From an uncultured Burkholderiales bacterium (GTDB taxonomy: Bacteria > Pseudomonadota > Gammaproteobacteria > Burkholderiales > Burkholderiaceae_C): a stretch of DNA of 64,000 bases. Location of the stretch: contig CAIZIT010000063.1 of assembly GCA_903933115.1 (NCBI GenBank), positions 1 to 64,000 on the forward strand, in the 5' to 3' direction. Both the position numbers and the translations under genes were made by a program. Position 1 is the stretch's first letter, and each line of letters begins with the position of its first letter. The notes below the pieces were generated by a model. The model had not been told where the DNA came from. It was given only the letters and a program-made list of their open reading frames with translations, and did not search any database. Shown one piece after another: positions 2,666 through 42,286 of the stretch.

Positions 2666-5600
2666 GATATTTTTTGAGTGCTTTTAGGAGAGGCGATGTT
2701 GTTGAGGATGTCTCGAATGAGGTGTGTTCTTTGTTTGACTTCGGGCAAATTGCGCTCGATTCTAATTTTGTCGTTGCCAGCCAATCGAATGTGCTTGTTC
2801 TTTTGAACGAGCTCAATGATCTTACTCGCTTCAATGGGCGCGTTGGGCTTGAAGGTGATGTGGGTAACGCCGGGGGCTGCATCGACTTTGGCCACACCAT
2901 AGGACTTGGCTAAAATTCTCAGCCGGTGCACCTCCACCAAGGTCTGCACTTGAGCGGGGGGTTTACCAAAGCGGTCCACAATTTCTTCTTGCAAACGATC
3001 GACTTGATCGAAATTCTTGGCTGTTGCGAGTTTTTTGTAAAAGGACAACCTCAAGTGCACATCCCCACAGTAGTCGTTGGGCAGCAAGGCAGGGGAGTGG
3101 AGGTTGATCTCCGTCGTGGCCTGCAAGGGGCTCAAGAGATCGGGCTCTTCGCCGTTTTTGAGCGCTCTGACCGCCTCCGAGAGCATTTCGTTGTAGAGCT
3201 GAAAGCCCACCTCCATCATGTTGCCACTCTGGTTCTCTCCAAGGATTTCTCCCGAGCCCCGAATCTCCAAGTCATGCATGGCCAAGTAAAAGCCCGAGCC
3301 GAGCTCCTCCATTTGTTGGATGGCTTCCAGGCGTTGCCCCGCCTGTTTGGTGAGCCCCTCAATGTCAGGAACCATCAAATAGGCGTAGGCTTGGTGATGG
3401 CTCCTGCCCACTCGTCCCCTCAGTTGATGCAACTGGGCCAGGCCAAACTTATCGGCTCGGCTGATCAAAATGGTGTTGGCACTGGGCACATCAATACCGG
3501 TCTCGATAATGGTCGAGCAAAGCAAGACGTTAAAGCGCTGCGCCACAAAGTCACGCATCACCCGCTCGAGATCCCTCTCACCCATTTGTCCATGGGCGAT
3601 CTCAATTCGGGCCTCAGGCAGCAATTCGCGCAGTTGATGCAAGCGGTTCTCAATGGTGCTCACTTCATTGTGCAAGAAGTAGCATTGGCCCCCGCGCTTG
3701 ATTTCTCTCAACACCGCCTCTCGAATCACGCCTGAGCCCTCACGCCTTAAAAAGGTTTTGATGGCCAAGCGGCGTTGTGGGGCAGTGGCAATCACACTCA
3801 AGTCCCTCAGACCCTCAAGGGCCATCCCAAGCGTTCTGGGGATGGGCGTGGCGGTCAGGGTGAGCACATCCACCTCTGAGCGCATCGCTTTCATGGCCTC
3901 TTTGTGGCGCACACCAAAGCGGTGTTCCTCATCAATGATCATGAGTCCGAGTTGTTTGAATTGAACACTTTGGCTCAAGAGCTTGTGGGTGCCCACAACG
4001 ATATCAACCGTTCCTGCCTTGATGCCCTCAATGGCCTGGTTGATCTCTTTGGTGGTCTTGAAGCGAGACATCTCCGCGATTTTGACAGGCCACTTGGAAA
4101 ATCGGTCGACGAGGGTTTGGTAATGCTGTTCAGCCAAGAGGGTGGTGGGGGCCAAAATGGCCACTTGCTTGCCGCCGGTCACGGCGATGAATGCCGCTCG
4201 GATGGCCACCTCTGTTTTACCAAAGCCCACATCCCCACAAATCAATCGATCCATGGGTTTGGGGCTGATCATGTCTTGGATCACGGCGTGGATGGCTGCC
4301 TTTTGGTCGCCCGTTTCCTCAAAGCCAAAGGCGTTGGCAAAGGTCTCGTAGTCGCCGGGAGAGAATCTGAAGGCAAAGCCCGATTGAGCAGCGCGTCTTG
4401 CGTAGAGATTCAAAAGCTCCGCCGCTGCGTCTCGAATTTGTTCTGCTGCGCGCCTCTTGGCTTTGTCCCATTGGGCGGAGCCTAGGCGGTGAAGGGGTGC
4501 CTCGTCTGCACTGACACCGGTGTAGCGCGACACCAGATGCAACTGGCTGACAGGAACATAAAGGACGGCATCGTCGGCGTAGACCAAGTGGAGGAACTCT
4601 TGAGTGGCGGGTAAGCCGTCGGCATCCACCCCCACCCCCAAGTCCAAATTGACCAGGCCCTTGTAGCGACCAATGCCGTGCGAGTTGTGGACCACGGGAT
4701 CTCCAATTTGCAACTCGGAGAGGTCTTTGATCAAAGAGTCCAGGTCGCTCACCTGCTCTTGTTTTTTGCGTTTTCTGGAAAAGCTGTTGGTCGCAAAGAG
4801 CTCGGTCTCGGTCACAAAGTCAATGCCTTGCTCCAAGTCGCTGAATCCATTGGCCAAAGAGCCCAAGCAAATGCCAAGGCGAGAGTCGCTGGCGATGAAG
4901 TCCTCCAGGGACTCAAAAATAGGGGGATCAAATTGACTGGCTCGAAGGAAGTCCAAAAGACTTTGCCGACGACCCTCGGTCTCAGCAAGGATCAAGATCT
5001 TTTGTGCGCTGCTCAGGGCATGTGTTTTTAAGCGCTGCAGGGGGTCATCGTGGCCTCTCTCGACTTTCAGCTCCAAGAGGGGCGCACACCAAGGGGTATC
5101 TTCTTTGGTTTTTGCCGTCTTGGGGCTGGCTTCTTCAATGCTGGCTTCATTCAAGAGGGGCGACCTGATGGCCAATTGCGCATAAACATTGCACTTGCTG
5201 TAGAACTCTTCAGCGTTCAAGAACAGGGCGCTGGGTGCCAAAACCGGGCGCTCAGGATCGCCTTGATTGAGTCGGTACCTCTCTTGGGTGTCGAGCCAAA
5301 AATGCTGGAATGCGTTTTCAAGCTCCCCGTGGGTGACGATGATCGCCTCCTCGCCCAAGTAATCGAAAACGGTTGCCGTTTCATCAAAGAACAAAGGCAA
5401 GTAGTATTCAATGCCTGCTGTCGCGATCGATTGTCCAATGTCTTTATAGAGGCGACTCCTGGTGGGGTCACCCTCCAAGAGCTCACGCCAGCGAGAGCGA
5501 AATTTTGCACGCGCGGCGTCATCCATGGGAAACTCTCGTCCGGGCAAGAGCCGCACCTCGGGCACGGGGTACAAGCTTCTTTGGGAGTCGGGGTCAAAGG

Positions 5601-11145: not shown

Positions 11146-11222
11146 AGGCGATTAGCTCAGTTGGTTAGAGCGCTTCCTTGACATGGAAGAGGTCGTTGGT
11201 TCGAATCCAATATCGCCTACCA
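11146..11222 (+). tRNA. tRNA-Val (GAC)
   Basis: The cloverleaf folds fully: acceptor AGGCGAT/ATCGCCT, D arm GCTC...GAGC, anticodon stem CTTCC/GGAAG around loop TTGACAT (anticodon GAC, valine), T arm GTTGG-TTCGAAT-CCAAT. The discriminator A and the CCA end are encoded. I saw no repeat of the 3' end downstream that would mark an integrated element. Confidence 0.96.
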
Positions 11223-14883: not shown

Positions 14884-14968
<85 letters not shown>

Positions 14969-19820: not shown

Positions 19821-19884
19821 AGCGACTAAAAAGTTAAATCAGAAATTTTTTTATTGAACTTGAACTGAATTCGGAGAAACACAA

Positions 19885-20778
19885 ATGGCAGCAATTACAG
19901 CAAGCATGGTGGCAGAATTAAGAGCCAAAACCGACGCTCCTATGATGGAGTGCAAGAAGGCGTTGACCGAGTCCGAAGGCGACATGGTCAAAGCTGAGGA
20001 AATTCTTCGTGTGAAGTTGGGCAGCAAAGCCGGTAAGGCCGCTTCCCGAGTCACGGCTGAGGGTGTCGTGTTTGCAAGCATTGAAGGCCACACTGGCGCA
20101 TTGCTTGAAATCAATTGTGAAACCGATTTCGTGACCAAAAATGACAGCTTTTTGGCCATGGCCAAGGCGGCCGCTGATTTGTTGGTCAAGCACCAACCCA
20201 AAGATCTCGAAGCCTTGGGCGCTTTGAGCTACTCGCAAGACGGTTTCGGCCCCACTTTGGAAGAGGTGAGAAAGGGCTTGATTGGTAAAATTGGCGAAAA
20301 CATGAGCTTTAGACGCTTTCAGCTCTTCACGGGCTCGAACGCTTTGACCAGTTACTTGCACGGCACTCGCATTGGCGTGATGGTGGAGTATGTGGGCCAA
20401 GAGAGTGCAGCCAGAGATGTGGCCATGCACGTGGCCGCGATGAAGCCTGTGGCTTTGACCAGTGCTGATGTGCCTGCTGAGTTGATCGAGCGTGAGCGCT
20501 CTGTCGCAACGGCGAAAGCGGCCGAGTCAGGCAAGCCCGCAGAGATTGCACAAAAGATGATCGAAGGTTCTGTTCAAAAGTATTTGAAGGAAGTGTCCTT
20601 GTTTGATCAGACTTTTGTCAAAAACGACAAGCAAACGGTCGAGCAAATGCTCAAAGCCACCAACACTCAAGTTAAATCTTTCACCATGTACGTGGTGGGC
20701 GAGGGGATTGAGAAAAAGGTGGACGACTTTGCCGCAGAGGTTGCAGCTCAAGTCGCTGCCGCCAAGCAGCAAAGCTGA
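19885..20778 (+). CDS. tsf: Elongation factor Ts
   Basis: EF-Ts exchanges GDP for GTP on EF-Tu. The N-terminal UBA-like domain reads [18 protein letters not shown], and the core contains the TDFV motif ([11 protein letters not shown]) that contacts the EF-Tu nucleotide pocket. At 297 residues it has standard length. It sits between a terminator after rpsB and a strong terminator before pyrH. Confidence 0.98.
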
Positions 20779-20783
20779 TGGTC

Positions 20784-20811
20784 AAAAAAAGGGACTTCGG
20801 TCCCTTTTTTT
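20784..20811 (+). terminator. Strong terminator after tsf
   Basis: AAAAAAAGGGAC pairs perfectly with GTCCCTTTTTTT around a TTCG tetraloop, followed by a further T. It is symmetric, so it could act in both directions. Confidence 0.93.
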
Positions 20812-20863
20812 TGAGCCCTAGATTGAGCTAAACTTTATCAACACCCCATTAGGAGAAAACGAC

Positions 20864-21586
20864 ATGACTCAACCCGCGCCCGCACACAAGCGTATTTTGC
20901 TGAAACTCTCTGGTGAAGCGCTGATGGGGGAGGATGCATTTGGGATCAATCGGGCCACGATTGTGAGAATCGTGGAGGAAATTGCGGAAATCACCCGCTT
21001 GGGGGTTGAAGTGGCCGTGGTGATTGGTGGGGGCAACATCTTCAGGGGTGTGGCTGGTGGATCGGTCGGTATGGACCGCGCTACAGCTGACTACATGGGC
21101 ATGCTGGCAACGGTCATGAATGCGTTGGCATTGGCAGACACGATGAACAAAGCGGGTTTGACCGCTCGGGTGATGTCGGCCATTGGCATTGAGCAAGTGG
21201 TTGAGCCTTACGTGCGACCCAAGGCCTTGCAGTATTTGGAAGAGGGCAAAGTGGTGGTCTTTGCTGCGGGTACGGGCAACCCATTTTTCACGACCGACAC
21301 TGCTGCCGCTCTGAGGGGTGCAGAAATTGGTGCAGAATTGGTCCTGAAGGCCACCAAAGTGGACGGTGTCTACACCGCGGATCCCAAAAAGGACCCCTCC
21401 GCCACGCGTTACAGCAAGATCAGTTTTGATGATGCCATTCAGCAAAACTTGGGCATTATGGATGCCACAGCGTTTGCGCTGTGCAGGGATCAAAAACTGC
21501 CCGTGAAGGTCTTTTCTATTTTTAAAAATGGAGCCTTAAAGCGAGTGGTCATGGGCGAGGACGAGGGCACATTGGTCTATGCTTAA
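20864..21586 (+). CDS. pyrH: Uridylate kinase PyrH
   Basis: It phosphorylates UMP to UDP with ATP in pyrimidine metabolism and belongs to the amino-acid-kinase fold. The 240-residue product shows [13 protein letters not shown] (ATP site), [13 protein letters not shown] (substrate loop) and [14 protein letters not shown]-like residues ([16 protein letters not shown]). AGGAG precedes the ATG. It stands between tsf and frr as in nearly all proteobacteria. Confidence 0.98.
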
Positions 21587-30909: not shown

Positions 30910-31704
30910 ATGAGTCTCATTCACCCCACTGCATTGATTGATCCCAAGGCCGAGCTCGACAGCAGCGTCAGTGTGGGAGCCTATACGTGCATTGGCCCCC
31001 ATGTCAAAATCGATCGAGACACACAAATCGGACCTCATTGTGTGATCGAGGGGCACACCCGCATTGGCGAGAAAAATCAAATCTTTCAATTCAATTCTTT
31101 GGGCGCTGTGCCCCAGGATAAAAAATACGCGGGTGAGCCCACCCGTTTGGAGATTGGTTCGAGAAACACGATTCGTGAATTCTGTACATTCAACATCGGC
31201 ACGGCCAATGACCGTGGTGTCACGAGCATTGGCGACGACAATTGGATCATGGCCTACGTTCACTTGGCCCATGATTGTCAAGTGGGCAACCAAACCATCT
31301 TTGCCAACAACACCCAACTCGCAGGCCATGTTGTGGTTGAGGACTGGGTGATTTTGGGAGGCTTTACGGTGGTGCATCAATTTTGCCGAATCGGCAAGCA
31401 CAGCTTCACGGCCATGAATGCGCTCCTCTTTGCCGATTTGCCTCCTTTCGTGATGGCTCAAGGTCAACCCGCGAGTGCGAGATCCATGAATTTTGAGGGC
31501 TTGAAGCGAAGAGGCTTTGAGGAGAGAAGAATCCATGCGGTCAAGATGATGCACAAATACTTGTACCGAGAGCAGTTGAGTTTGAGCGACGCCATCACAC
31601 AAATTGAGGGTCTCAAGGTGACGCATCCCGAGGCGCTTCAGGATGTGGAGGACATGCTGAACTTCTTAAAGCTCACGCCCCCAAAGCGTGGCATCGTGCG
31701 TTGA
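30910..31704 (+). CDS. lpxA: LpxA, acyl-ACP:UDP-GlcNAc O-acyltransferase
   Basis: LpxA makes the first lipid A step, adding a 3-hydroxyacyl chain to UDP-GlcNAc. It opens with hexapeptide repeats ([20 protein letters not shown]), contains the catalytic-His segment [12 protein letters not shown], and ends in the alpha-helical C-terminal domain with the FEGLKRRGF segment. The length of 264 is normal. It is followed by lpxB, which is frameshifted here. Confidence 0.97.
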
Positions 31705-31819
31705 GCGTTCACTTGGCTGCATTGTTTTTGCTTCTGATTGCTCGAGTCTTGAGGCTGCTTTTTTTAAAAATGGAGCCTTTCTCTCCATTCCCATCACCCT
31801 TGTCCATCACCAGTCCAAG

Positions 31820-33006
31820 ATGCCCATGAAGGATTTGAACTTTGCCATGGTCGCGGGAGAAGTCTCGGGCGACTTGTTGGCCTCTTTGATGATGCGAGGA
31901 CTTCAAGCGCGCTTTGAGCGTGCGAGGTTTTACGGCATCGGGGGCCTCAGATGGACGCGTTGGGCTTTGAGTCTCAGTGGTCTTTTAAAAAGTTGGCCGT
32001 ACGGGGTTATTTTGAAGTGCTCAAACATTACCGCGAAATCGTGGGCATTCGAGAGTCGTTCTTTCAAAATGCACAAAGCGCATTGCCCGATGTCTTCATA
32101 GGTGTGGATGCGCCCGACTTCAATTTGGCGCTGGCCCAACGCTTTAGAGAAAAGGGTGTCTTGAGTGTGCAGTTTGTCTGCCCCTCCATTTGGGCTTGGA
32201 GAGCCCAGCGGGTTTTAAAAATTGCCCAAAGTGTAGACCACGTCCTTTGTCTCTTTCCCTTTGAGCCCGCACTCCTAGAGCGCCACAGCATCTCGGCCAC
32301 CTTTGTCGGGCATCCCTTGGCCCAAGTCATCCCTTTTGAGATCGATGCTCTCAAGGCCAAAAAATCATTGGGCTTGCCCTGCGATGTGCCCTTGGTGGCG
32401 TTGCTGCCTGGCAGTCGTCAAAGCGAGGTGGAGCACATGGCGCGTCGGTTTTTAAGGGCGGCCCAAGAGATGCTCACAGTCAAGCCTGAGGTGCGATTTG
32501 TGTTGCCTACACCCAGTGCCTCTGTCAACCTCATTCAGGGCTTGTTGCGTCAAATGAACATGAGTGCGTACTGCACTCTTTTGGTGGGCCGCTCGCATGA
32601 GTGTTTGGCCGCTTGTGATGTGGCCATGGTGGCCAGTGGAACGGCCACCCTTGAGGCCGCTCTTTTTAAAAAACCCATGGTGATTGCTTACCACATGAAT
32701 GTCTTTTCTTGGCAAATCATCAAACGCCAAAGGCTGCAGCCCTGGGTGGGATTGCCCAATATTTTGTGTGAGGATTTTGTGGTGCCTGAGTTGCTCCAAG
32801 CACATTGCTCGCCAGAGAGTTTGGCCCACGAAACGCTCAAATGGTTCAATCAGCCCCAGCGTGTGCTGCAATTGGTCGAGCGTTTCAAAGCTTTGCACCT
32901 GACCCTGCGCCAAGACACGACCGCTTTGTGTGCCGATGCGATTGAACAATTGCTAGCCCAGAGAATGGATCCAAAAAAGACCGCTCTTCGAGTGGACCCC
33001 TCATGA
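31820..33006 (+). pseudogene. lpxB: lpxB (lipid A disaccharide synthase), split by a one-base frameshift
   Basis: LpxB joins UDP-diacylglucosamine and lipid X into the lipid A disaccharide. The N-terminal 40 residues (MPMKDLNFAMVAGEVSGDLLA... to FYGIGG) are read in the frame of ATG 31820/31826. The rest, MDALGFESQWSFKKLAVRGYFEVLKH-type sequence to the end, continues in the frame starting at 31951. The family reads GIGGPQM across this point. The sequence has ggcatcgggggcctcagatgg, and one extra C after the G run (31940-31946) would restore GIGG-P-QMDALGFES. So this is one missing base in a G5C2 run: a real mutation, slippage, or a sequencing error. Since all other parts are intact and the gene is normally essential for lipid A, a sequence error or a functional slip is plausible. 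The stop overlaps rnhB (ATGA). Confidence 0.88.
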
Positions 33007-33659
33007 AGCACCCATCCGCAGCGCGAACTGCTTGTGCACTTGGAGAGCATGAGCTCCAAGCCCTTTTGGCCAGTGAGATGATCATCGCCGGCGTTGATGA
33101 AGCGGGGCGTGGCCCTTGGGTGGGGCCTGTCGTGGCCGCTGCGGTCATATTGGATCCGTCTTGGCCCATTCACGGTTTGGCCGACTCGAAAAAATTGTCT
33201 GAAAAAAAACGCGAACAATTGGAGTTGGAGATCAAAGCCCATGCATGGTCCTATTGCGTGCAAGAGGCGACGATTGAAGAAATCGATGAGCTCAATATTT
33301 TGAACGCCACGCTTTTGGCCATGCGCCGTGCCGTTTTGGGGCTCTCACGAACCCCTGAAGTCGTTTTGGTCGATGGCAACCGCCCACCGCAGTTGCCCTG
33401 CCGTGTGCACACCTTGGTGGGGGGGGACGATTACGTGCCCTCCATTCAAGCGGCATCGATTTTGGCCAAAGTGCACCGTGACCGTTGGTGCAAAGAGATC
33501 GATCAAGCCTTCCCTGGTTACGGTTTTGCTGCTCACAAAGGCTACGGTACGGCCCAGCATCAACGCGCATTGATCGATTTGGGCGTGACCCCTTGGCACA
33601 GGAAAACTTTCGCACCGGTGGCCAAAATCTTGGGCCAAGTCCCAACGGGGGATGTATGA
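33003..33659 (+). CDS. rnhB: Ribonuclease HII
   Basis: RNase HII nicks DNA 5' of misinserted ribonucleotides and degrades RNA:DNA hybrids. The signature [16 protein letters not shown] carries the first acidic pair and the GRG loop. LVDGNRPPQ and [12 protein letters not shown] supply the remaining motifs. It has 218 residues, with an N-terminal extension of about 26. It overlaps lpxB upstream and the methyltransferase gene downstream by ATGA, so the three are coupled. Confidence 0.96.
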
Positions 33660-41964: not shown

Positions 41965-42286
41965 AGCAGTGGCCCGAGAGGCGCAAAAGACTATGACGCT
42001 CGCATGGGCATAGGCATAGGCATAGGCATAGGCATGAACATGTCCATGCTCACCTCATCGAACATCGGTCTTCGCCTGCCAATGAGGCCCATGGGGACAA
42101 GGGCTCCAAGCTCTTTAGGCCTACCAGAGCTTGCTAAAAACGCGAGTGCGTCGTGAATTAGTCTCAGTCCACCTCCAAAAAGGGGGTATATTGTTGGAAA
42201 ATAGACCTCCCACCCCTTGAAATGCCTAAAATGGGGTGCATATGTTTGTAATTCGTTTGTGTTTTTAATTCCGATTGGAGCCTTCA
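41965..42286. other. Non-coding gap between rlmE and ftsH
   Basis: These 322 bases contain the GGCATA hexamer array at 42007-42035 followed by related cat/atg words. I see no gene and no clear terminator. The last 80 bases are A/T-rich and probably contain the ftsH promoter, but I cannot place it firmly. Confidence 0.55.
42007..42035. repeat. Hexamer tandem repeat (GGCATA)x4 plus partial
   Basis: Four perfect GGCATA units and a fifth partial GGCAT lie 43 bases after the rlmE stop. Confidence 0.92.

Follow-up and report, generated by a model that had tools for sequence, protein, structure and literature searches.

A one-base frame break in lpxB of an uncultured Burkholderiales bacterium most likely reflects a sequence or assembly error

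The gene for lipid-A-disaccharide synthase, lpxB, is normally essential, and in this draft genome (2.82 Mb in 119 contigs, 99.3% complete) its coding sequence is split between two reading frames. Does the break exist in living cells, or only in the assembled sequence? If real, it would mean either that an essential gene is rescued by recoding or that lipid A is lost, and both would be notable; as an artefact it is an annotation issue only, in which gene callers would shorten lpxB and wrongly make lipid A synthesis look incomplete. Its contig number and its relatives suggest that the genome is metagenome-assembled. The locus lies on contig C63 (182.6 kb), in the gene order fabZ–lpxA–lpxB–rnhB, within a window of 64,000 nucleotides, the whole stretch of DNA analysed. 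The features around the break are:

30910–31704, plus strand: lpxA, the upstream neighbour, a single open frame
31826–31945, plus strand: N-terminal part of lpxB, 40 residues including the GEVSGD stretch, in its own frame
31880–31945, plus strand: putative hairpin extending to the run, folding strongly as RNA and unremarkably as DNA
31938–31948, plus strand: G/C run, the site of the frame change, one base short compared with relatives
31946–32101, plus strand: out-of-frame tail of the upstream frame, ending at a stop codon
31951–33006, plus strand: C-terminal part of lpxB, 351 residues, in a frame one step off that of the N-terminal part
33003–33659, plus strand: rnhB (ribonuclease HII), the downstream neighbour, a single open frame that overlaps the lpxB stop

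Scanned separately, the two halves of the gene matched adjoining positions of the same family models. In Pfam LpxB (PF02684), 31826–31945 aligned to positions 2–35 with 21.7 bits, slightly below the family cut-off of 22.6 bits, and 31951–33003 aligned to positions 38–345 of 374 with 255.7 bits; NCBIfam TIGR00215 placed the halves at 8–43 and 46–371 of its 382 positions. Together the two frames match most of either model, confirming the claim of an earlier note on this DNA that conserved LpxB halves lie in different frames. The locus differs from other LpxB family members in that its frame is interrupted after residue 40, so that no single frame spans the model. Starting at ATG 31826, the upstream frame runs past residue 40 out of sense to the stop at 32101, and from about 31945 the frames diverge, the downstream part being displaced by one step toward −1. 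We placed the change in the G/C run at about 31938–31948, where the earlier note had also put it: compared with the closest intact sequences the run is one base short, and the sequence alone does not identify the missing base. The surroundings are those of the family, with fabZ, lpxA and rnhB adjoining the gene, and the same neighbours were found in five relative loci of approximately 7 kb. The lpxA–lpxB gap (31705–31825) measures 121 nucleotides, compared with about 38–53 nucleotides, counted by eye, in four close relatives. Elsewhere in the window, tRNA genes lie at 11146–11219 (plus strand) and 14887–14968 (minus strand).

We compared the site across 96 relative loci (L002–L031 and L032–L097, a set in which some records occur twice). 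A tblastn search with both halves returned matches in one frame at 70 loci and in different frames at none; the N-terminal query is short, and it gave no match at the remaining 26. Motifs on either side of the site were found in one open frame in 91 of the 96 loci (88 when counted by the sequence around the site), and the other five matched along the gene in a single frame by tblastn. The site is thus uninterrupted in all 96 relative loci, and the break here is therefore more than chance. A run of at least five Gs occupies the site in 7 of the 91 motif-found loci, two of which are one record, and all seven are uninterrupted. Among them is G018 (the same record as L035), the nearest in DNA sequence around the site, which carries an identical run of five Gs within an open frame. 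The earlier note had held that intact related strains would point to a plain sequence error; this relative supplies the intact run, but as a different species, whose LpxB shares about 76% identity in its C-terminal part, rather than as a strain.

The gene itself shows no sign of accumulated decay or relaxed selection, although a very recent loss would look alike. Identity of the C-terminal part to five outgroup loci was 62.4, 61.8, 60.7, 58.0 and 57.4% in this genome and 60.3, 60.3, 56.6, 56.4 and 57.9% in the sister species G066, indicating that the part behind the break is no more diverged from the outgroups than its counterpart in a sister. Compared with four relatives, dN/dS was about 0.08–0.27 in the N-terminal part, which comprises 40 codons only, and 0.11–0.14 in the C-terminal part. 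Outgroup similarity and low dN/dS both support the earlier note's description of the rest of the gene as undecayed. The genome contains one lpxB match, leading us to reject a second copy elsewhere, and viral contigs gave no LpxB match. The genes lpxC, lpxK, waaA/kdtA and lptD were each found once and without stops, lpxA and fabZ adjoin lpxB, lpxA as a single open frame, and a putative lpxD beside them, named from its position, is about 80% identical to three relatives. The lipid A pathway therefore seems kept; general loss of lipid A synthesis is not supported, lpxC, lpxK, waaA/kdtA and lptD being open.

A poor assembly could carry such breaks in many genes. We compared the stop-to-stop frames of four relatives with the contig; with overlaps removed, this left 91 matching frames, which cover 93 kb of C63, 44 of them inside the window. 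One broken gene, lpxB, was found among these 91 gene-like frames. The scan yielded 26 colinear pairs in different frames, four of which are lpxB itself, one per relative, and we judged the other 22 not to be gene-internal breaks, a short match at 79085–79186 aside. In ten of the 22 the main match lay outside the chosen frames, being antisense or in frames better matched by another relative; one of these ten, the pair 77386–79186, has that short minor match, at its N-terminal end. In six the minor match sat under another chosen frame, and the last six fell at four places: at 42208–42264, 79475–79537 and 81680–81757 the minor match was upstream of the protein's apparent start, and 86519–86804 overlaps a small signal recognition particle RNA. 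The small signal recognition particle RNA lies at 2518–2614 on the minus strand of L130. Run in the opposite direction, under thresholds a little stricter than those of the forward scan, the comparison covered 218 gene matches across the four relatives (62 + 28 + 79 + 49) and gave no break candidate.

We also scanned C63 ab initio, together with 312 kb from other contigs (494 kb in all), and found no other convincing break, at a sensitivity of about a third (109 of 300 trials mid-gene and 90 of 300 near one match end). The scan returned seven candidates on C63, two of them lpxB, and 11 on 20 other stretches. The others were set aside for a start codon near the stop or for one very short segment. 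In the candidate at 19866–21583 the first frame reaches its own stop and is followed by an ordinary gap; in that on L165, checked by reading and against NCBIfam, the first frame matches ElyC and the second, which has no NCBIfam match, begins behind the stop of the first. L163 was read by eye. The contig contains 143 runs of exactly five Gs, and a break was found at one. The break looks isolated. With no second one seen in those 91 frames, indels are not widespread in the assembly, and the idea of a genome with many such errors was dropped. Isolation argues against a generally poor consensus; what remains is one error or one mutation.

Could the two frames nonetheless be joined during expression? 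We regard it as very improbable that both frames feed into a single LpxB, whether through a ribosome shifting by −1 or through RNA polymerase slipping on the run, perhaps aided by a hairpin just upstream. Both halves look constrained, and a 66-nucleotide RNA hairpin (31880–31945; −30.3 kcal/mol, z −3.4) extends to the G run. Of 7,302 equally long windows on the contig's plus strand, 13 reach that stability. This was, however, the only strong result among three segments tried, it lies within coding sequence, and the same segment gives a less stable fold in four sister species, at −16.8 to −22.4 kcal/mol. The hairpin is the one oddity here, a candidate element without a known role. As DNA the segment folds in an ordinary way (z −0.5 and 0.0), and we rejected a DNA hairpin as the cause of an error. 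Downstream of the break the RNA folds no better than shuffled sequences (z +0.5 and +0.6, in a fold model without pseudoknots), and reading the run by eye revealed no in-frame X XXY YYZ slippery heptamer. Because none of the 96 relative loci is broken at the site, it is not a conserved recoding site. The locus therefore lacks the slippery heptamer, the downstream structure and the conserved break that mark programmed −1 ribosomal frameshifting. A run of five Gs is also short for polymerase slippage. Compensation of indels by frameshifting or transcriptional slippage is described in an excerpt of one review (PMC5009743); relative to what that excerpt covers, the locus is alike in having two frames that jointly make one protein, with a G run at their junction, and differs in that no conservation, standard slippery site or downstream stimulator was found. 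More doubtful still is the specific proposal that the break is real and that RNA polymerase, slipping on the five Gs under the influence of the nascent-RNA hairpin at 31880–31945, restores full-length LpxB; were it true, an essential housekeeping gene would be kept alive by recoding, which would hence be a brake on lipid A synthesis. We give least credence of all to a gene in two pieces, with the C-terminal part starting at ATG 31951, the GGGGG before it serving as a weak ribosome site, and the product acting alone or with the N-terminal fragment. The ATG does stand directly behind the break and in the downstream frame, but it is no new start, because the intact gene of at least 73 of the 91 relatives in the motif list has an internal methionine at this very position, and the C-terminal piece would be without the GEVSGD stretch.

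An error thus ranks first, a recent real mutation second, and recoding is unlikely. We consider it probable that the break in this otherwise ordinary lpxB is an isolated base-level error of the reads or the assembly, a reading favoured because the 96 relative loci are intact, the gene is undecayed and the tested lipid A genes are kept. The assembled sequence would then be short of one base in the G/C run of an otherwise normal gene, the base presumably being present in cells and absent only from the assembly, and living cells would most likely carry an uninterrupted lpxB and make ordinary lipid-A-disaccharide synthase. What counts against an error is that the genome otherwise looks clean, with a single break on a contig so rich in five-G runs. 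A real, recent loss of one base by replication slippage in the run, in all cells or in a subpopulation, leaving lpxB null or nearly so, appears unlikely. Mutations commonly arise in short G/C runs, the contig otherwise looks clean, and absence of decay is expected if the mutation is recent; yet the break affects the sole lpxB match in the genome, in a gene that is normally essential, the other tested lipid A genes have no stops, and a majority consensus should not hold a lethal allele. A late block should also be harmful, because lpxA and lpxC are still present. In Acinetobacter baumannii the early genes lpxA, lpxC and lpxD are dispensable whereas lpxH is still needed, which the title of the report attributes to accumulating intermediates (PMC4985137). 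We infer that cells truly without LpxB function but retaining the early genes would be sickly or inviable. The earlier note had left error, mutation and slippage open; the data now favour error, and slippage finds no positive support beyond a possible contribution of the upstream hairpin. The break is most likely not new biology.

A further point weighs against an error. According to an excerpt of one study, Illumina per-read deletions are low, about 5 × 10−6 per base in one data set, and indel motifs may merely mirror motif abundance (PMC4787001); with indel rates this low, a consensus error would need thin coverage or mixed strains. The break resembles the sporadic frame breaks of draft assemblies in occurring in a single assembly, at a G/C run and in a gene that is otherwise intact, and differs in that no second break accompanies it among the 91 gene-like frames compared. 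It also resembles them in that three other assemblies carry lpxB breaks of their own. We surveyed 84 genomes of the genus, including this one, taking an open frame of 381 or more amino acids as a proxy for an unbroken lpxB. Of the 78 with a match, 71 had such a frame; this genome, with 362 amino acids, is one of the seven below the threshold. In four of the seven (G001, G050, G064 and G054) the contig stops within the gene; the gene is open as far as the contig end in G054, and the cut in G064 was judged from coordinates. The other two have frame changes away from this site: near residues 86–98 in G067 (L154, G067:C126), and at another place in G004 (L153, G004:C335), where lpxB is also short of about 60 residues. 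Breaks elsewhere in the gene thus occur in 2 of 77 other genus genomes and 1 of 96 relative loci, each at a different place. The last of these, L096, is a metagenome-assembled genome recorded as a complete chromosome, and its lpxB (2881–4009) contains two frame changes, at yet other places, which are probably sequence errors.
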